A DNA stretch of 64,000 nt from Halobaculum sp. XH14. GTDB lineage: Archaea > Halobacteriota > Halobacteria > Halobacteriales > Haloferacaceae. The DNA is taken from contig NZ_CP134949.1 of assembly GCF_032116555.1 (NCBI RefSeq), forward strand, positions 1,736,001-1,800,000, in the 5' to 3' direction. Below the pieces are notes generated by a model. The model searched no databases, was not told the origin of the DNA, and saw only the letters and a list, made by a program, of their open reading frames with translations. This document shows, piece by piece, positions 34,774-41,184 of this stretch; the first letter of the stretch is position 1, and each line of letters starts with the position of its first letter. The translations under genes and the position numbers were made by a program.

Positions 34774-34787
34774 TTAGGTCGGCCAAA
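34774..34787. promoter_or_regulatory. DtxR-like iron box 1
   Basis: TTAGGTCGGCCAAA fits the pattern TTAGG-N4-CC(T/A)AA, matching half-sites of DtxR/SirR/Idr-type metal-dependent repressors. It lies 42-55 bases before the importer binding-protein ATG, just upstream of the TATA-like element. Confidence 0.6.
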
Positions 34788-34798
34788 AGATCGCAGGG

Positions 34799-34806
34799 CT
34801 TACTTA
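34799..34806 (+). promoter_or_regulatory. TATA-like element of iron importer binding protein gene
   Basis: CTTACTTA lies 23-30 bases before the ATG at 34829, between two iron-box-like palindromes, so repressor binding would block the core promoter from both sides. Confidence 0.5.
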
Positions 34807-34809
34807 CCT

Positions 34810-34823
34810 TTAGGCAAACCAAA
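34810..34823. promoter_or_regulatory. DtxR-like iron box 2
   Basis: TTAGGCAAACCAAA follows the same TTAGG-N4-CCxAA pattern as box 1, with centres 36 bases apart. It covers the expected transcription start and ends five bases before the ATG. Confidence 0.6.
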
Positions 34824-34828
34824 AACCG

Positions 34829-35989
34829 ATGCGACGACGAGACTTCATCGGCGCGGGTGCCGGTGCGCTCACGACGGGACTGGTCGGCTGTCTGAACTCG
34901 AACGATTCGGGGGCCGGAACGCCGACGGACGAAGCGACGGACGCGCCGACCGTAGAACCGACCGAGGAACCGACCGACGCCGCCACGCCGGAATCGGCGA
35001 GCTACACGGTGTCGATGGCTCCGGTCGGCGACGTGACGTTCGACGCGGTGCCCGAGACGTGGGTTGCCAACAACGGGAGTTGGGCCGACATGGGCATCGC
35101 GCTCGGCATGGAACCGCCGAAGGGCGTCTGGCTCACGGGCCGCTATCACACCCAGTACTACGACGGCATTGACGGCGTCTCCGTCGACAAGAGCGGGATG
35201 GTCGACCTGTCCCAGGACGGCGTCAGCAAGGAACTGTTCTACGAACTCGAGGGCGACTTCCACGCCATCGACCCGAACTTCCTGATGAACCGGTTCGACG
35301 GCTGGGAGCAGGCCGACATCGACGAGGTCGAGGCGAACATCGGGCCGTTCTTCGGCAACAGCATCTTCTCGCGTGGCTACACCTGGCACGAGGATTACCA
35401 GTACTACGGCCTCATGGAGGCGTTCGAGAAGCTCGCCCGGGTGTTCCAGCGGACGGATCGCTACGAGGCGTTCGCCTCGCTCCACGAGGAGTTTCAGGCG
35501 TCGATCTCCGAGATCGTCCCGCCGGAGGGCGAACGCCCCGCGGCCGCCGTCCTCTGGGCGGGCGGCGACCAGCCCGAGGCGTTCTTCCCGTACGTCATGA
35601 GCGAGGGAACGAGCTTCAAGCAGTGGAACGACCTCCGGGTCCGGGACGCACTTGCCGAGACGGACGTGAAGGACTTCCACAGCAACCGCGGCCAGATCGA
35701 CTACGAGACGCTGCTCGAAGTCGACCCCGAAATCATCCTGCTCCGCGGTCAGGAGGCCAAGACCGGCGAGGAGTTCCGGAACACCGTCCTCTCCTTCATG
35801 GAGGACCACGACGTGGCGAGTTCGCTCACCGCGGTCCAGCGCGACGACGTCTACCGCGGCGGCCCGCTGTATCAGGGGCCGATCACGAACCTCGTCGTCA
35901 CCGAACGCGCCGCCTCCCAGGTGTACGACGTCGAAGACGAACTGTTCGACCGGAGCCGAGTGGCCGACATCGTGAACGGCGACGCCTGA
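34829..35989 (+). CDS. ABC transporter substrate-binding protein (iron-siderophore/cobalamin type)
   Basis: A 386-residue exported lipoprotein of the periplasmic-binding-protein family 2 (FepB/BtuF-like). The N-terminus has a twin-arginine signal (MRRRDFIGAGAGAL) and a lipobox LVGC (Cys21), followed by a Thr/Glu/Pro linker of about 40 residues. The mature part has two lobes joined by a helix, with typical VDPEIILLRGQEAKTGEEF near residue 300. It would capture a chelated metal and feed the FecCD/FecE pair downstream. Three DtxR-like palindromes in the locus argue for iron (siderophore) rather than cobalamin, but the ligand is inferred. Confidence 0.88.
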   Translation: MRRRDFIGAGAGALTTGLVGCLNSNDSGAGTPTDEATDAPTVEPTEEPTDAATPESASYTVSMAPVGDVTFDAVPETWVANNGSWADMGIALGMEPPKGVWLTGRYHTQYYDGIDGVSVDKSGMVDLSQDGVSKELFYELEGDFHAIDPNFLMNRFDGWEQADIDEVEANIGPFFGNSIFSRGYTWHEDYQYYGLMEAFEKLARVFQRTDRYEAFASLHEEFQASISEIVPPEGERPAAAVLWAGGDQPEAFFPYVMSEGTSFKQWNDLRVRDALAETDVKDFHSNRGQIDYETLLEVDPEIILLRGQEAKTGEEFRNTVLSFMEDHDVASSLTAVQRDDVYRGGPLYQGPITNLVVTERAASQVYDVEDELFDRSRVADIVNGDA

Positions 35990-36062
35990 GACGGGCGACG
36001 ACGACGGGCCACCCGTCGATACCTCCCCCGCGGGAGGGACGGACCGAAGGCCTTTTGCTGAA

Positions 36063-36076
36063 TTAGGGCGGCCTAA
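36063..36076. promoter_or_regulatory. DtxR-like iron box 3 (perfect inverted repeat)
   Basis: TTAGG-GCGG-CCTAA is a perfect 5-4-5 palindrome 35-48 bases before the permease ATG. It overlaps a TATA-like cctaaat. It is the best match of the three boxes to the DtxR-type half-site and suggests a separate iron-controlled promoter for the permease and ATPase genes. Confidence 0.7.
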
Positions 36077-36110
36077 ATGACATGCACTGTCGGATCGGGG
36101 GCGGTCGGTG

Positions 36111-37262
36111 ATGGCCGGCGAGACGCGGACCCCGCGCGTGGGTGGACTGCGGAGTCGGGTCTCGTGGATCGACGGGCCGCTCGTCACCGTCATCCTCGCG
36201 AGCCTCGGCGTGATCTTCGTCTCCGGCCTGATTCAGGTGAGCTTCGGCGATTACACGATGACGCTCCCGACGACGTGGCGGGCGGTGTTCGACCCGGTCG
36301 TCTGGACGAATCCGCAACTGTTCCTCCGCCTGTTTCTCGGTGAGGGGCTCGGGACCGACGTGGCTCGCACGCTCGGCATCTCGACCGCGGAGGTCTCGCT
36401 GTCACGCGAATCACTGGTCGTCTGGCGGATCAGGATGCCCCGCGTCATCGTCGCGATGTTCGTCGGCGCGAACCTCGCCGTCTCGGGGGCGGTCTTCCAG
36501 GCGGTCACGCGAAACGAACTCGCCTCCCCGTACATCCTCGGCGTCTCCTCGGGCGCGGGGCTGGCCATCCTGCTCACGCTCGTGGTGTACACCGGCCTCT
36601 CACAGCTCCTCCCCGTCATCGCCGCGCTCGGCGGCGCTGCCGCGTTCCTCCTCGTGTACGCGATCGCCTGGCAGGGAGGAACCAGCCCGGTCAGGCTCGT
36701 GCTCGCCGGCGTCATCGTCAGCACGGTGTTCCAGTCGCTCCAGACTGGGCTGTTCCTCGTCGCCGACGACCTCGGCGTCGTCCAGACTGCCATCGCGTGG
36801 ACGACCGGCTCGCTGACCGGCGTCAACTGGGAGGAGGTCCGGACCGCGTTCCCGTGGACGATCCTCGCGCTGACCCTCTCGCTGATCGGGTCGCGGCAGT
36901 TGAACATCCTGCTGCTGGGTGAACGAACCGCCCGGTCGCTCGGGATGCGGGTCGAACGGACCAGGTTTCTCCTCTCGGGGGTCGCCATCCTGGCGGCCGC
37001 GACCGCCATCGCGGTCGGCGGCATCATCAGCTTCGCGGGACTCATCGTCCCGCACATGGTACGGCAGCTCGTCGGCAGCGACTACAAGCGCCTCATGGTC
37101 GGCTGCCTGTTCGTCGGGCCGGCGCTGTTGACCGTCGCGGACGTCGGTGCGAGGCTCGGCCTGCCGTCCGGACAGGTGCCGGTCGGCATCGTCACGGGGC
37201 TCATCGGCGGGCCGTACTTCCTGTATCTGATGCGCCGCAAGAGCGCGCTGGGGGACCTATGA
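36111..37262 (+). CDS. FecCD family ABC transporter permease
   Basis: A 383-residue permease of the BtuC/FecCD type with about ten membrane helices, the channel for siderophore or corrinoid import. Recognisable parts are WRIRMPRVIVAMFVGANLAVSGAVFQAVTRNELASP, with RMPR and the GAxFQxxxRNxLASP pattern after helix 2. The cytoplasmic coupling region GGIISFAGLIVPHMVR lies near residue 300. ATG at 36111 or the GTG one codon upstream are both possible; the difference is one residue. Its stop overlaps the ATPase start by four bases. One iron-box palindrome precedes it. Confidence 0.91.
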   Translation: MAGETRTPRVGGLRSRVSWIDGPLVTVILASLGVIFVSGLIQVSFGDYTMTLPTTWRAVFDPVVWTNPQLFLRLFLGEGLGTDVARTLGISTAEVSLSRESLVVWRIRMPRVIVAMFVGANLAVSGAVFQAVTRNELASPYILGVSSGAGLAILLTLVVYTGLSQLLPVIAALGGAAAFLLVYAIAWQGGTSPVRLVLAGVIVSTVFQSLQTGLFLVADDLGVVQTAIAWTTGSLTGVNWEEVRTAFPWTILALTLSLIGSRQLNILLLGERTARSLGMRVERTRFLLSGVAILAAATAIAVGGIISFAGLIVPHMVRQLVGSDYKRLMVGCLFVGPALLTVADVGARLGLPSGQVPVGIVTGLIGGPYFLYLMRRKSALGDL

Positions 37263-38164
37263 GCTCGTTCGACGACGCGGAGCCGGACGCGACGTCCGGC
37301 GGAGCCGAGGAGACGAGCGACGTGGCGGCCGGTCGGGCCGGGGACTCGGCGGCCGGACCCGCCGACGACAGCCCGGAGCTGTTCGTGGACGACGTCGCGC
37401 TCTCCTACGGCGACGGCGAGCCCGTCGTCGAGGCCGAGACGCTGGTCGTCCCGGCCGGCGAGGTGACGGCGCTGGTCGGTCCCAACGGCAGCGGGAAGTC
37501 GACGCTGTTGCGCTCGATGGCCGCGGAGATGGGTCCCGACAGGGGCTCGGTGCTGCTCGACGGCACCGACGTCCAGTCGTACGACGCAAAGCAGCTCGCC
37601 AGGGAACTCGGAATGTTGTCCCAGGAGAACGTCGCGCCCGACTCGACGACGGTCCGCGAGCTGGCGATGCACGGTCGCTACCCGCACCGCGGGTTCTTCG
37701 AGCCCGTCGGCGACGAGGACAAGCGGGCGGTGGACCGCGCGCTGTCGCTCGTGGGCGTCGAGGACCTGGCCGGGCGGCCGGTCGGCGACCTCTCGGGCGG
37801 ACAAAAGCAGCTCGCCTGGCTCTCGATGGTGCTCGCCCAGGAGACGGACGTGCTGTTGCTCGACGAGCCGACGACGTATCTCGACCTCCACCACCAGCTT
37901 CGGGTGCTCGACGCGGTCACGCAGCTCAACGCCGAACGAGGCGTGACCGTCGCGGTCGTGCTCCACGACATCGGCCAGGCGGCCCGCTTCGCGGACAACC
38001 TCGTCGCGCTCAAGGACGGCGAGCCGTTCGACTGGGGACCGCCCGACGAGGTGGTGACGGGCGAACTGGTTCGCGAGGTGTTCGGCGTCGAAGCCGACGT
38101 CGGCTTCGGCCCGGACGGCCCGACCGTGACGCCGCGGCGCGCGCTCGACGAGGAGTCGGACTGA
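37259..38164 (+). CDS. ABC transporter ATP-binding protein (FecE/FhuC type)
   Basis: A 301-residue ATPase for the importer. The Walker A GPNGSGKST (residues 74-82), the signature LSGGQKQLAW, the Walker B LLLDEPTTYLDL with catalytic Glu, and the switch His in VLHDIGQA are complete. The first 40 residues are an acidic Ala/Gly-rich extension (ATSGGAEETSDVAAG) absent from classical FecE. It starts within the permease stop (ATGA overlap). The substrate is inferred from the neighbouring binding protein. Confidence 0.92.
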   Translation: MSSFDDAEPDATSGGAEETSDVAAGRAGDSAAGPADDSPELFVDDVALSYGDGEPVVEAETLVVPAGEVTALVGPNGSGKSTLLRSMAAEMGPDRGSVLLDGTDVQSYDAKQLARELGMLSQENVAPDSTTVRELAMHGRYPHRGFFEPVGDEDKRAVDRALSLVGVEDLAGRPVGDLSGGQKQLAWLSMVLAQETDVLLLDEPTTYLDLHHQLRVLDAVTQLNAERGVTVAVVLHDIGQAARFADNLVALKDGEPFDWGPPDEVVTGELVREVFGVEADVGFGPDGPTVTPRRALDEESD

Positions 38165-38294: not shown

Positions 38295-40322
38295 ATGAGC
38301 GGAGCGGAGGAGAGCGTCTTCGACGTCTACCGGGACCGCGTCGAGCGGCCGCTCTACCGACTGTTTACGGAGTACGGCACGCGGGAGTGGCGCTGGCTGG
38401 TGCTCGGGATGACCGCGAACGTCATCGCTCGGGCGGCGAGCCTGCTCCCGCCGGTCGTGCTCGGCGCGGCCATCGACAGCGCGTTCGACGGCGACGCCCC
38501 CTACTCGTTGCCGCTGATCCCGGCCTCGCTGCTGCCGACGGCCGCGCCGGACCCGGTGCAGTTCCGGTTCTCCGCGGCGGTCATCGTCGGGGCGTTCGTC
38601 GTGACCGCGGTCCTGACGTGGGTGTACGGCGTTGCCGCGAACAACTTCGCCCACAGCGTGATGCACGCGGTCAGGACCGACTCGTACGCGAAGATGCAGG
38701 ACCTGGACATGTGGTTCTTCGACGACAAGCAGACGGGCGAGGTGATGTCGGTGCTCAACAACGACGCGACGAACCTCGAGCGGTTCCTCGACGACGCGCT
38801 CCAGAACTCGGTCCGCATCGGCGTCATGCTGCTGGGCATCGGCGTCGTGCTGTTCCTCGAGAACGCACAGCTGGCGTTTCTCACCCTCGTCGCCGTCCCC
38901 GCAATGGTCGGCTTTACCTACTGGTTCATGAAAGCTGTCGAGCCGCGTTACGCCGCCCAGCGGGAGGCGGTCGCGGACCTGAACACCCGGCTGGAGAACG
39001 CGCTGGGCGGCATCCAGCTCGTGAAGACCTCGGGGACGGAGGAGTACGAGACGGGGCGGGTCCGGCGGACCTCCCACGCGTACTACCGGAAGACGCTCGC
39101 CATGCTCCGGCTCAACTACATCTACCGGCCGGGCATGGAGCTGCTCGCGGGCGTTTCTTTCGCCGTGACGTTCGTGGTCGGCGGGCTCTGGCTCATCGAC
39201 GGCACCGCCCCCGGCCCGCTCACCGGCGAACTCTCCTCGGGGGCGTTCGTCACGTTCATCCTGCTCTCCCAGCGCTTCGTCACGCCGCTCTCGGAGGTCT
39301 CGAACATCGTCTCCCAGTACGAGAACGCGAAGGCCTCCTGCGAGCGCGTGTTCGGGCTCCAGGACATCCCCCGGCGGGTGACCGACGAGCCCGGCGCCAT
39401 CGAACTCGACGACGTCGACGGCGCGGTCGAGTACGACGACGTCTCCTTCCGTTACGCCCAGGGCGACCCGGATGCCGCTGGGGGCGACGCGGACGGCGGT
39501 CACCCCGTCCCCGACTCCGCCAACCTGATCCTCGACGGGATCGACTTCTCCGTCGAGCCGGGCGAGACGGTCGCGCTCGTCGGCCCGACCGGCGCGGGCA
39601 AGTCCACGCTGCTGAAACTCCTGCTCAGGCTGTACGACGTGGACGAGGGGGCGGTCCGGATCGACGGCCACGACGTCCGCGAGGTGACCGCCAGGAGCCT
39701 CCGGCGGTCGATCGGCTACGTCAGCCAGGACACGGTCCTCTTCGACGGCACCGTCGCGGAGAACATCCGCTACGGGCGGTTCGACGTCGACGTGGCCCGA
39801 GGCGACGGGGGCGACGGCGACGACGAGGTACACGAGGACATCGTCGAGGCCGCCGAGGCCGCCGAGGCCCACGAGTTCATCACCAACCTCCCGGACGGCT
39901 ACGGGACTGGCATCGGCGAGCGCGGCGTGAAGCTCTCGGGCGGGCAGCGCCAGCGGCTCTCCATCGCCCGCACGGTGCTCCAGGACCCCGACATCCTGGT
40001 GCTCGACGAGGCGACGTCGGCGGTCGACACGGAGACGGAGATGCTCATCCAGCGCTCGCTCGACAGGCTCGCGGCCGACCGCACGACGTTCCTCATCGCC
40101 CACCGGCTCTCGACGGTGAAGGACGCCGACGAGATCCTCGTGCTGGAGGGCGGCGAGGTCGTCGAGCGCGGCGGCCACGAGGAACTGCTCGAGGCTGACG
40201 GCCTGTACGCCAAGCTCTGGGGCGTCCAGGCCGGCGAGATCGAATCGCTGCCCGAGGAGTTCGTCGAGCGCGCCAGGCGGAGACAGGCCGAAACCGTGCT
40301 GTCCACGGAGGACGGCGAGTAG
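38295..40322 (+). CDS. ABC exporter, fused membrane and ATPase domains
   Basis: A 675-residue half-transporter of the lipid A/multidrug exporter type. The membrane domain takes residues about 20-350 (six helices); an N-terminal arm and a coupling-helix region are visible. The ATPase domain has Walker A GPTGAGKST, signature LSGGQRQR, Walker B ILVLDEATSAVD and switch His in LIAHRLSTVKD. An acidic loop DPDAAGGDADGGHPV precedes Walker A. It would act as a homodimer, exporting an unknown lipid, drug or peptide. A promoter-like acataagg lies about 35 bases before the ATG; it is the first gene after the iron importer and not part of that operon by spacing (130 bases). Confidence 0.9.
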   Translation: MSGAEESVFDVYRDRVERPLYRLFTEYGTREWRWLVLGMTANVIARAASLLPPVVLGAAIDSAFDGDAPYSLPLIPASLLPTAAPDPVQFRFSAAVIVGAFVVTAVLTWVYGVAANNFAHSVMHAVRTDSYAKMQDLDMWFFDDKQTGEVMSVLNNDATNLERFLDDALQNSVRIGVMLLGIGVVLFLENAQLAFLTLVAVPAMVGFTYWFMKAVEPRYAAQREAVADLNTRLENALGGIQLVKTSGTEEYETGRVRRTSHAYYRKTLAMLRLNYIYRPGMELLAGVSFAVTFVVGGLWLIDGTAPGPLTGELSSGAFVTFILLSQRFVTPLSEVSNIVSQYENAKASCERVFGLQDIPRRVTDEPGAIELDDVDGAVEYDDVSFRYAQGDPDAAGGDADGGHPVPDSANLILDGIDFSVEPGETVALVGPTGAGKSTLLKLLLRLYDVDEGAVRIDGHDVREVTARSLRRSIGYVSQDTVLFDGTVAENIRYGRFDVDVARGDGGDGDDEVHEDIVEAAEAAEAHEFITNLPDGYGTGIGERGVKLSGGQRQRLSIARTVLQDPDILVLDEATSAVDTETEMLIQRSLDRLAADRTTFLIAHRLSTVKDADEILVLEGGEVVERGGHEELLEADGLYAKLWGVQAGEIESLPEEFVERARRRQAETVLSTEDGE

Positions 40323-40395
40323 CCCGTTCCGACGGCCCACGACGAGCGCAGCGTGTGCCCCCGCGCTTTTCCTGTTTCCGGACGACCGATCCGAC

Positions 40396-41184
40396 GTGAC
40401 GGTCGCGCCTGACCCGTCGGAGATCTACGAGCGCGCGGTGGCGGAGGGCGACCGCCGACTCGGCCAGTCGACGCTCGAACTCGCGTCGACCGGGTTCATC
40501 GCCGGCTTCACGGTCGTCTTCGGCATCGTCGCGCTCGGCATCGTCGAGGGGATCCTCGAACCCGCCATCGGCGACGTCGCCACGATCGCCGGAGCGCTCG
40601 CCTTCGGTCCGGGGGTCGTGTTTCTGGTCGTCGGGCGCGCCGAACTGTTCAACGAGAACTTCTTCGACCCGGTCGCGAGCGCGGTCGAGGCGTCCGGGAC
40701 ATGGCTGGTCGGGCCGCTGGTCCGCCTCTGGACGGTGACGTTCGCGTTCAACCTCGCCGGCGGCGCGCTCGTGATCGGGGTGTTCTCCGTGGAGGGGGCG
40801 CTCCCGCCCGGGACCGGCGAGGCGTTCGTCCGGGCCGCCGAGGAGATCGTCCACCGTCGGACGCCGGCGAAGTTCGCGGACGCGTTCGCGGGCGGCGTCC
40901 TGGTGACCCTGCTCTCGTTCCTGCTGCACGCGGCCAACGCCGTCGGGACGCGAGCGTTCCTCGCGTACCTGGTCGGCTTCCTGCTGGCGCTGGGAGCGTT
41001 CGACCACGTCGTGGTGACCATGCTCCACGTGCTGTTCGGGGTCGTCTTCGGGGCCGGGATCGGCCTCGCGGGCGTGGCGACGACGACCGCGGTCGTCACG
41101 TTCGGAAACCTCGTCGGGGGGCTCGGGCTGGTGACGCTCACCCACGTCGCGCAGGCGAAGGGGGCCGAGGACTCCGACGGTTGA
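40396..41184 (+). CDS. formate/nitrite transporter (FNT) family protein
   Basis: A 262-residue FNT-fold channel with six membrane helices forming a pentamer. The family pattern is present as GRAELFNENFF (the P1 loop after helix 2, in place of FocA-type ELFTGN) and HVVVTMLHVLFG towards the C-terminus. The ELFNEN spelling resembles the YfdC branch more than FocA/NirC, so formate or nitrite is not assured. It starts with GTG; the TATA-like cttttcctg lies about 27 bases upstream. It is convergent with the GYD-domain gene, one base apart. Confidence 0.83.
   Translation: MTVAPDPSEIYERAVAEGDRRLGQSTLELASTGFIAGFTVVFGIVALGIVEGILEPAIGDVATIAGALAFGPGVVFLVVGRAELFNENFFDPVASAVEASGTWLVGPLVRLWTVTFAFNLAGGALVIGVFSVEGALPPGTGEAFVRAAEEIVHRRTPAKFADAFAGGVLVTLLSFLLHAANAVGTRAFLAYLVGFLLALGAFDHVVVTMLHVLFGVVFGAGIGLAGVATTTAVVTFGNLVGGLGLVTLTHVAQAKGAEDSDG

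Follow-up and report, generated by a model that had tools for sequence, protein, structure and literature searches.

DtxR-type half-sites paired at 36 bp around the core promoter of a probably iron-repressed siderophore-type importer in Halobaculum sp. XH14

The closest described systems come from both bacteria and archaea. A single dimer of the bacterial regulator IdeR is reported to bind a half-site, for which TTAGGNNNNCCTAA has been proposed as consensus (PMC8464063). The P. furiosus regulator LrpA is described as bordering the TATA box on its downstream side, so that RNA polymerase is excluded while TBP and TFB are bound, and MDR1 is reviewed as acting in the same manner (PMC2995911). In Hfx. 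volcanii, all fhu genes or operons are stated, after Leyn and Rodionov 2015, to carry the ferR signal; upon iron starvation fhuG2 is given as 12.7-fold up, and 5 of 11 fhuD paralogues as 4.5- to 8-fold up (PMC11349517).

The window examined here is the whole 64-kb stretch G000:C1:1736001-1800000 of the Halobaculum sp. XH14 genome (G000, 3.68 Mb). A strict pattern scan of the window for TTAGG-N4-CC(T/A)AA returns three matches, at 34774, 34810 and 36063, the same positions that had been named in the first-pass annotation (Table 1). The arms are those of DtxR/IdeR-type sites, TTAGG and CCTAA across a 4-bp gap: 36063 is exact, and 34774 and 34810 each have CCAAA in place of CCTAA, one arm base off. 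The earlier description of 36063 as a perfect palindrome holds for the 5-bp arms and fails for the spacer, GCGG, which is not self-complementary. The first two sites lie, as had been proposed, 36 bp apart around a TATA-like element, with a BRE/TATA-like stretch in between. Strict TTAGGN4CCWAA is found 3 times in these 64 kb; 200 first-order Markov sequences average 0.005 matches each, and none has more than 1. With up to two mismatches the window count of 3 equals chance (mean 2.83; at least 3 in 53 of 100 shuffles), so only the strict matches are informative. Across the genome, TTAGGN4CCTAA with at most one mismatch is found 34 times per strand against 22 for the control, which makes lone one-mismatch hits mostly noise. 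Mismatch-tolerant counting was dropped as evidence on both grounds.

Table 1. Predicted operators and genes of the importer locus (window coordinates)
Feature	Coordinates	Strand	Details
Upstream DtxR-type operator (predicted), TTAGGTCGGCCAAA	34774..34787	.	-55 to -42 from ATG; upstream member of 36-bp pair
22-bp spacer	34788..34809	+	BRE-like CGCA 34792-34795; TATA-like CTTACTTAC 34799-34807
Downstream DtxR-type operator (predicted), TTAGGCAAACCAAA	34810..34823	.	Start 19 bp before ATG (-19 to -6)
Binding protein, 386 aa, Peripla_BP_2 (FecB/FhuD type)	34829..35989	+	Pfam E 4.9e-15
Third operator (predicted), single, TTAGGGCGGCCTAA	36063..36076	.	ATG 19 bp from site start
Possible 9-codon leader ORF	36082..36111	+	TGA overlaps permease ATG (TGATG); start 19 bp from permease operator
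FecCD permease	36111..37262	+	E 3e-86; among NCBIfam profiles FecD scores highest, narrowly ahead of BtuC
ABC ATPase	37259..38164	+	FecE-like by best profile

The sites are quite probably operators of a metal-dependent DtxR-family repressor that closes the siderophore-type ABC importer when iron is plentiful. One dimer would occupy each 14-bp site. At the binding-protein gene the two sites would flank the core promoter: the downstream site falls between the TATA-like element and the presumed leaderless start, where a bound dimer would keep RNA polymerase out, much as described for P. furiosus LrpA; the upstream site, which ends 4 bp before the BRE-like element, may hinder TFB/TBP or reinforce the first dimer. 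The permease has an apparent second promoter, where one such site at the equivalent position may act similarly.

The genes themselves form a complete siderophore-type (FecBCD/FhuBCD-like) set, with Peripla_BP_2 binding protein, FecCD permease and ABC ATPase adjoining. The permease scores almost equally with the FecD (221.7 bits) and BtuC (211.7 bits) profiles, which counts against a siderophore importer; the operators favour iron as the imported substrate. Ahead of the permease, the overlapping 9-codon ORF is arranged as in translational coupling, a possible arrangement here for an ORF that is poorly conserved. Among 29 related loci with a permease hit, 11 have a site with at most one mismatch within 150 bp upstream of the permease, and an ATG 19 bp from the site followed by a short ORF occurs in only 3 of these (L067, L072 and L100), whose ORFs differ from one another in length and sequence. 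On this basis no conserved leader peptide is claimed. After the importer, on the same strand (38295-41184), lie an MsbA-type ABC exporter and a formate/nitrite-type channel, neither of which carries a strict site itself.

The genome-wide scan proposed in the first-pass annotation yields a distribution that is not random: strict sites are concentrated at siderophore-type binding-protein genes. The pattern returns 40 rows that reduce to 25 distinct places, as 15 palindromes are counted on both strands; the reversed-pattern control gives 1 forward and 1 reverse hit. Such enrichment at metal-homeostasis genes (25 places against 1 control hit per strand) is a mark of DtxR/IdeR-type operators. With each place assigned to the nearest suitably placed gene, 14 of the 25 fall at siderophore-type importer genes: 13 at Peripla_BP_2 genes and 1 at the permease of the window. 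The remaining 11 are at a Zip transporter, dpsA, a 51-aa small protein beside dpsA, an SBP_bac_1 binding protein, two FAD oxidoreductases (2 places), a Gluconate_2-dh3 protein and glycosyltransferase-type genes (3 places); the eleventh place falls between a DUF1102 match below threshold and a DUF7344 protein. Several of these places, at the glycosyltransferases and the DUF7344 neighbour, adjoin genes without an evident iron role and count against an iron repressor.

At the Peripla_BP_2 genes the arrangement seen in the window recurs. Promoter sites are present at 9 of the 11, a result that in the main upholds the earlier suggestion of an iron-repressed siderophore importer, and an ATG follows the site start by 19 bp in 8 of them and by 17 bp in 1 (among the 8, 188402 has another ATG 13 bp away, and the site at 1559170 has one mismatch). 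An upstream partner is found at 7 of these 9 promoters, at 36 bp in 5, 34 bp in 1 and 37 bp in 1, with one mismatch in some members of the pairs; 2539744 and 2784647 have neither a strict nor a one-mismatch upstream partner. No site is found at the other 2 of the 11 genes, both of which match PGF-CTERM/BtuF-like models, one below the cut-off of its best model.

Two further placements in this genome differ in detail. At dpsA (G000:C1:1614279, L035:4280), unlike the importer genes, a single site lies about 70 bp before the ATG and may be an activating site. At the FAD-oxidoreductase genes (G000:C1:2538585, L037; G000:C3:174135, L041), an ATG lies exactly 19 bp from the site start and opens a short ORF that is out of frame with the likely FAD-oxidoreductase gene.

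Conservation of the pair extends across the haloarchaea. The binding protein has 118 genomic relatives, from which the 80 best were taken, all of them haloarchaeal to judge by title. A site with at most one mismatch occurs in the region scanned around the gene start in 78 of these 80 (all except L048 and L103), and it lies exactly 19 bp before the start codon in 40; 38 of those 40 have an upstream partner, at 36 bp in 33. In many other relatives the site is 17-23 bp before the start codon. A scan for TTWGG-N4-CCWAA pairs spaced 20-50 bp in 119 genomes, a sample of the family to which the window belongs, finds 254 pairs in 90 genomes and none with the control. Exactly 36 bp separates 155 of the 254, in 67 genomes (control 0); 12 pairs are at 37 bp, none at 38-50 bp, and 87 at 20-35 bp. 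Among the 75 of these 87 matches that were listed, spacings are 26 bp (22 pairs), 27 bp (5), 28 bp (1), 29 bp (5), 30 bp (1), 31 bp (4), 32 bp (2), 33 bp (0), 34 bp (12) and 35 bp (23), with none at 20-25 bp. Pairs at 34-37 bp are present in 213 of 292 haloarchaeal genomes and 62 of 77 genera, with a reversed control of 0, and in a sample of the phylum they occur in 32 of 43 haloarchaeal genomes as opposed to 0 of 203 others. Orthologues contribute to these counts, and the pairs cannot be taken as independent. Chance does not explain the 36-bp pair.

The spacer consensus, taken from 78 unique 36-bp spacers that were oriented by an ATG lying 17-20 bp further on, is roughly AATTCGAAG-N3-TTTTA; 3 of the 78 occur in both orientations. 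A CGNA-like element lies 4 nt after the upstream site in 63 of the 78, the offset at which the window has its CGCA. When strict 36-bp pairs are each read both ways with no ATG required (180 readings), an ATG occurs at offset 18 in 23 and at offset 19 in 54, and at every other offset from 14 to 59 only 0-6 times; the peak at 18-19 is therefore not produced by the ATG-based orientation. A BRE-like element is recognised in 100 of 140 oriented pairs, taken at any spacing; 11 of the spacers in this set were read in both orientations, and one site per pair was allowed one mismatch. The downstream site is exactly 18 nt from the first base of the BRE-like element in 91 of the 100, and the upstream site mostly precedes it by 4 nt in the 36-bp class or by 2 nt in the 34-bp class. 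The downstream site is also the more conserved and more constant member of the pair: in the 78 pairs, the third base is A in a fraction of 0.77 of upstream and 0.99 of downstream sites.

The genes behind the pair include other functions. Fifty-five loci with a 36-bp pair were chosen manually to cover a variety of listed cases, and the proportions that follow mean little. In 30 of the 55, the pair is followed by a protein matching a profile built from the nine importer binding proteins of the Halobaculum genome, which are 31-53% identical among themselves. A diaminobutyrate aminotransferase follows in 4 (L155, L156, L179 and L146), an IucA/IucC gene in 1 (L144), a DUF5059 protein in 2 and a DUF7260 protein in 2 (for each family, one assigned by Pfam and the other by similarity), one of two similar 89-aa proteins in 2, and a CARDB protein in 1. 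For 13 of the 55, automatic choice gave no convincing downstream gene. As the layout also precedes unrelated iron genes, it is not merely inherited with one gene family. The CARDB gene with a 36-bp pair in G111 (L162, L193) was considered as a homologue of HVO_A0466 and is not claimed as one: the nearby RND-like gene is on the other strand with two further genes in between, and HVO_A0466 and HVO_A0467 are described as overlapping by one base (PMC11349517).

Siderophore synthesis provides a second setting. The diaminobutyrate aminotransferase is found at 67% identity or more in 7 of 9 genomes searched (one being that of the query), and a 36-bp pair lies directly upstream of it in 5 of the 7. 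In the other two, G111 and G049, no strict pair precedes the aminotransferase, which counts against an iron repressor. In G004, G018 and G197, the same strand carries two IucA/IucC genes no more than about 9 kb past the aminotransferase. In G090 and G116 the IucA/IucC genes are on another contig, also just after a listed 36-bp pair, and in G090 the first of them starts 128 bp after the downstream site of this separate pair; the aminotransferase pair is thereby ruled out as the constant head of a siderophore operon. In Hfx. volcanii, the transcript of the siderophore-synthesis cluster is reported as about 44-fold higher without FeCl3 than at 40 uM (PMC7407949), a figure for the homologues in that species, with the pair itself read in the genomes searched here. 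Iron starvation is also reported to lower IucC 10.4-fold, with IucA of the same operon 3.8-fold up (PMC11349517), and this fall in IucC counts against the iron-repressor reading.

Small proteins and enzymes with no established place in this regulon also lie behind paired sites. An 89-aa protein without a Pfam match starts 18-19 bp after a 36-bp pair at L157 and L189 (two genomes of a single genus; the two proteins are 60% identical). Pairs at 26 bp precede a small protein of 51-57 aa at 6 of the 8 loci fetched from the 22 listed (L124-L129, six genera); these proteins share a motif like SPDRTVFTEEGNxDGWIATD, and their ATG lies 21-22 bp from where the downstream site begins. The Halobaculum copy, of 51 aa (G000:C1:1615191, L035:5192, minus strand), is the one beside dpsA; it has an imperfect partner site and a DUF7331 match below the cut-off. 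This small protein is likely under iron control. A glycosyltransferase-like gene follows a pair spaced at 26, 27 or 29 bp in five genomes, the Halobaculum genome among them (L036, L130-L133). The Halobaculum copy (sites G000:C1:2075966 and 2075993) tested as RGP family, and by eye the others resemble it; a connection with iron is unexpected for such an enzyme. Two of the four listed 31-bp pairs (L134 and L135) have downstream a short protein with a NifU-like domain, tested in one of them.

Which DtxR-family protein reads the sites can be considered from the genome. The Pfam cut-off for the DtxR helix-turn-helix (HTH) is passed by 4 stretches, of which 2 are clear DtxR proteins: C1:2297601, with HTH, metal/dimerisation and FeoA domains, and C1:1959053, which is short and lacks FeoA. 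In alignment with IdeR (1fx7), C1:2297601 retains the Pro-Thr of the recognition helix (APTVTSM, compared to GPTVSQT), and C1:1959053, by eye, retains the Pro only (SPASANEM). These two IdeR residues are described as touching bases, and recognition by IdeR as being largely by indirect readout (PMC8464063), so the Pro-Thr clue is weakened. Of the two proteins, C1:2297601 appears the likelier reader of the TTAGG arms. A search of 6.5 kb and 6.0 kb of sequence surrounding the two clear DtxR genes, where autoregulation might have placed a site, found none with at most one mismatch. In the same alignment, C1:2297601 has Asp at the positions of Met10 and Cys102, which we take to be metal ligands of IdeR; its metal site would be nearer the manganese type, which counts against an iron repressor. 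That iron is the signal we infer.

Three alternatives bear on what the sites do. It is improbable that the metal they respond to is a different one (manganese or zinc), or that several DtxR paralogues whose motifs overlap share them, such that iron control is only partial. The site before the Zip transporter (961040) would suit this proposal, as would the presence of two clear DtxR proteins, the better candidate without the IdeR Met/Cys ligands; iron is favoured by the 14 of 25 places at siderophore-type importers, by the others at dpsA and the SBP_bac_1 binding protein, and by the reported response of homologous Hfx. volcanii genes to iron starvation (PMC11349517, PMC7407949). We also think it unlikely that the upstream site is an activating one and the downstream site a repressing one, each perhaps read by a different DtxR protein. 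Single sites do occur further upstream, as at dpsA (about 70 bp before the gene) and the Zip gene (63 bp), and upstream sites are the more degenerate members of the 78 pairs (third base A 0.77 against 0.99); a haloarchaeal DtxR protein is reported, in the work on TroR, to induce iron storage. Against this division, one consensus is common to both sites. Finally, short AT-rich arms near the promoters of a GC-rich genome, with loose matches at chance level, might be thought a coincidence, or a piece of the core promoter that no regulator reads. This seems very improbable, given 0 pairs with the reversed control in 292 genomes, 1 control hit per strand as opposed to 25 single places, and the lack of the motif at 2 binding-protein genes of another type.

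Within the preferred reading of iron-dependent repression, the origin of the 36-bp spacing is evenly balanced: about half of our expectation is that it is a by-product, each site being positioned independently by core-promoter geometry without dimer-dimer contact. The 91 of 100 downstream sites exactly 18 nt from the BRE-like start, with upstream sites mostly 4 or 2 nt before the element, would be expected from such positioning, as would the two of nine importer promoters (2539744, 2784647) without an upstream partner. The distribution is nevertheless tighter than simple occlusion seems to need (155 of 254 pairs at exactly 36 bp, none at 38-50 bp and none listed at 20-25 bp); a second class exists at 26 bp, about one helical turn away; and the BRE-like element shifts in 6 of 100 pairs while the sum stays 36, some of these maybe being misread elements. 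A class-wide haloarchaeal clamp, in which two DtxR-family dimers sit at a fixed 36 bp (26 bp at other genes) around the TBP/TFB site, is a more speculative proposal that we regard as rather doubtful. At 10.5 bp per turn, 36 bp corresponds to 3.43 turns, 26 bp to 2.48 and the 5-bp offset of the bacterial box, as derived from the box sequence, to 0.48; this shared helical phase is suggestive. On a clamp, 36 and 26 bp, both about n+0.45 turns, would repeat the phase of the 5-bp offset on the bacterial DtxR box: the opposite-face bacterial pair would be pulled apart, with the archaeal BRE/TATA held between its halves, and the spacing class (36, 26 or 31) might tune the response of each gene set.

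Taken together, the analysis gives a rule for haloarchaeal iron promoters: a DtxR half-site placed 18-19 bp ahead of the start codon and, in most cases, a second one 36 bp upstream. Such a rule makes iron genes readable from bare sequence, flags small proteins and enzymes not yet tied to iron, and raises the question of how a repressor of bacterial type acts at a TBP/TFB promoter. Both the motif and the iron regulon belong to known kinds; what may be new is the fixed spacing. The literature searched, which did not take in Leyn and Rodionov 2015, the TroR paper of 2024 or two papers on Idr, has no title or abstract that mentions a 36-bp pair; as these papers are the likeliest to describe it, the pair is not claimed as unpublished.

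Compared with known systems, the sites most resemble the haloarchaeal ferR signal and the Idr/SirR/TroR regulators of Haloferax and Halobacterium, which share the fhu-type importer class and the archaeal class. They are very probably the same regulon, a likeness drawn from gene class. The TroR motif, reportedly about 100 nt upstream of the start codon, is unlike the -55/-19 positions here. Archaeoglobus fulgidus MDR1 is also a metal-dependent archaeal repressor said to exclude RNA polymerase (PMC2995911); the 34-37 bp pairs are absent from the 203 non-haloarchaeal genomes sampled in the phylum. The actinobacterial IdeR/DtxR operator is a 19-bp box, TTAGGTTAGSCTAACCTAA, whose 14-bp half-site (TTAGGNNNNCCTAA), bound by one dimer, is the motif found here (PMC8464063). 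In that box two dimers lie on opposite faces of one shared 19-bp sequence, whereas the haloarchaeal single-dimer sites stand apart, mostly by 36 bp, around the BRE/TATA core.
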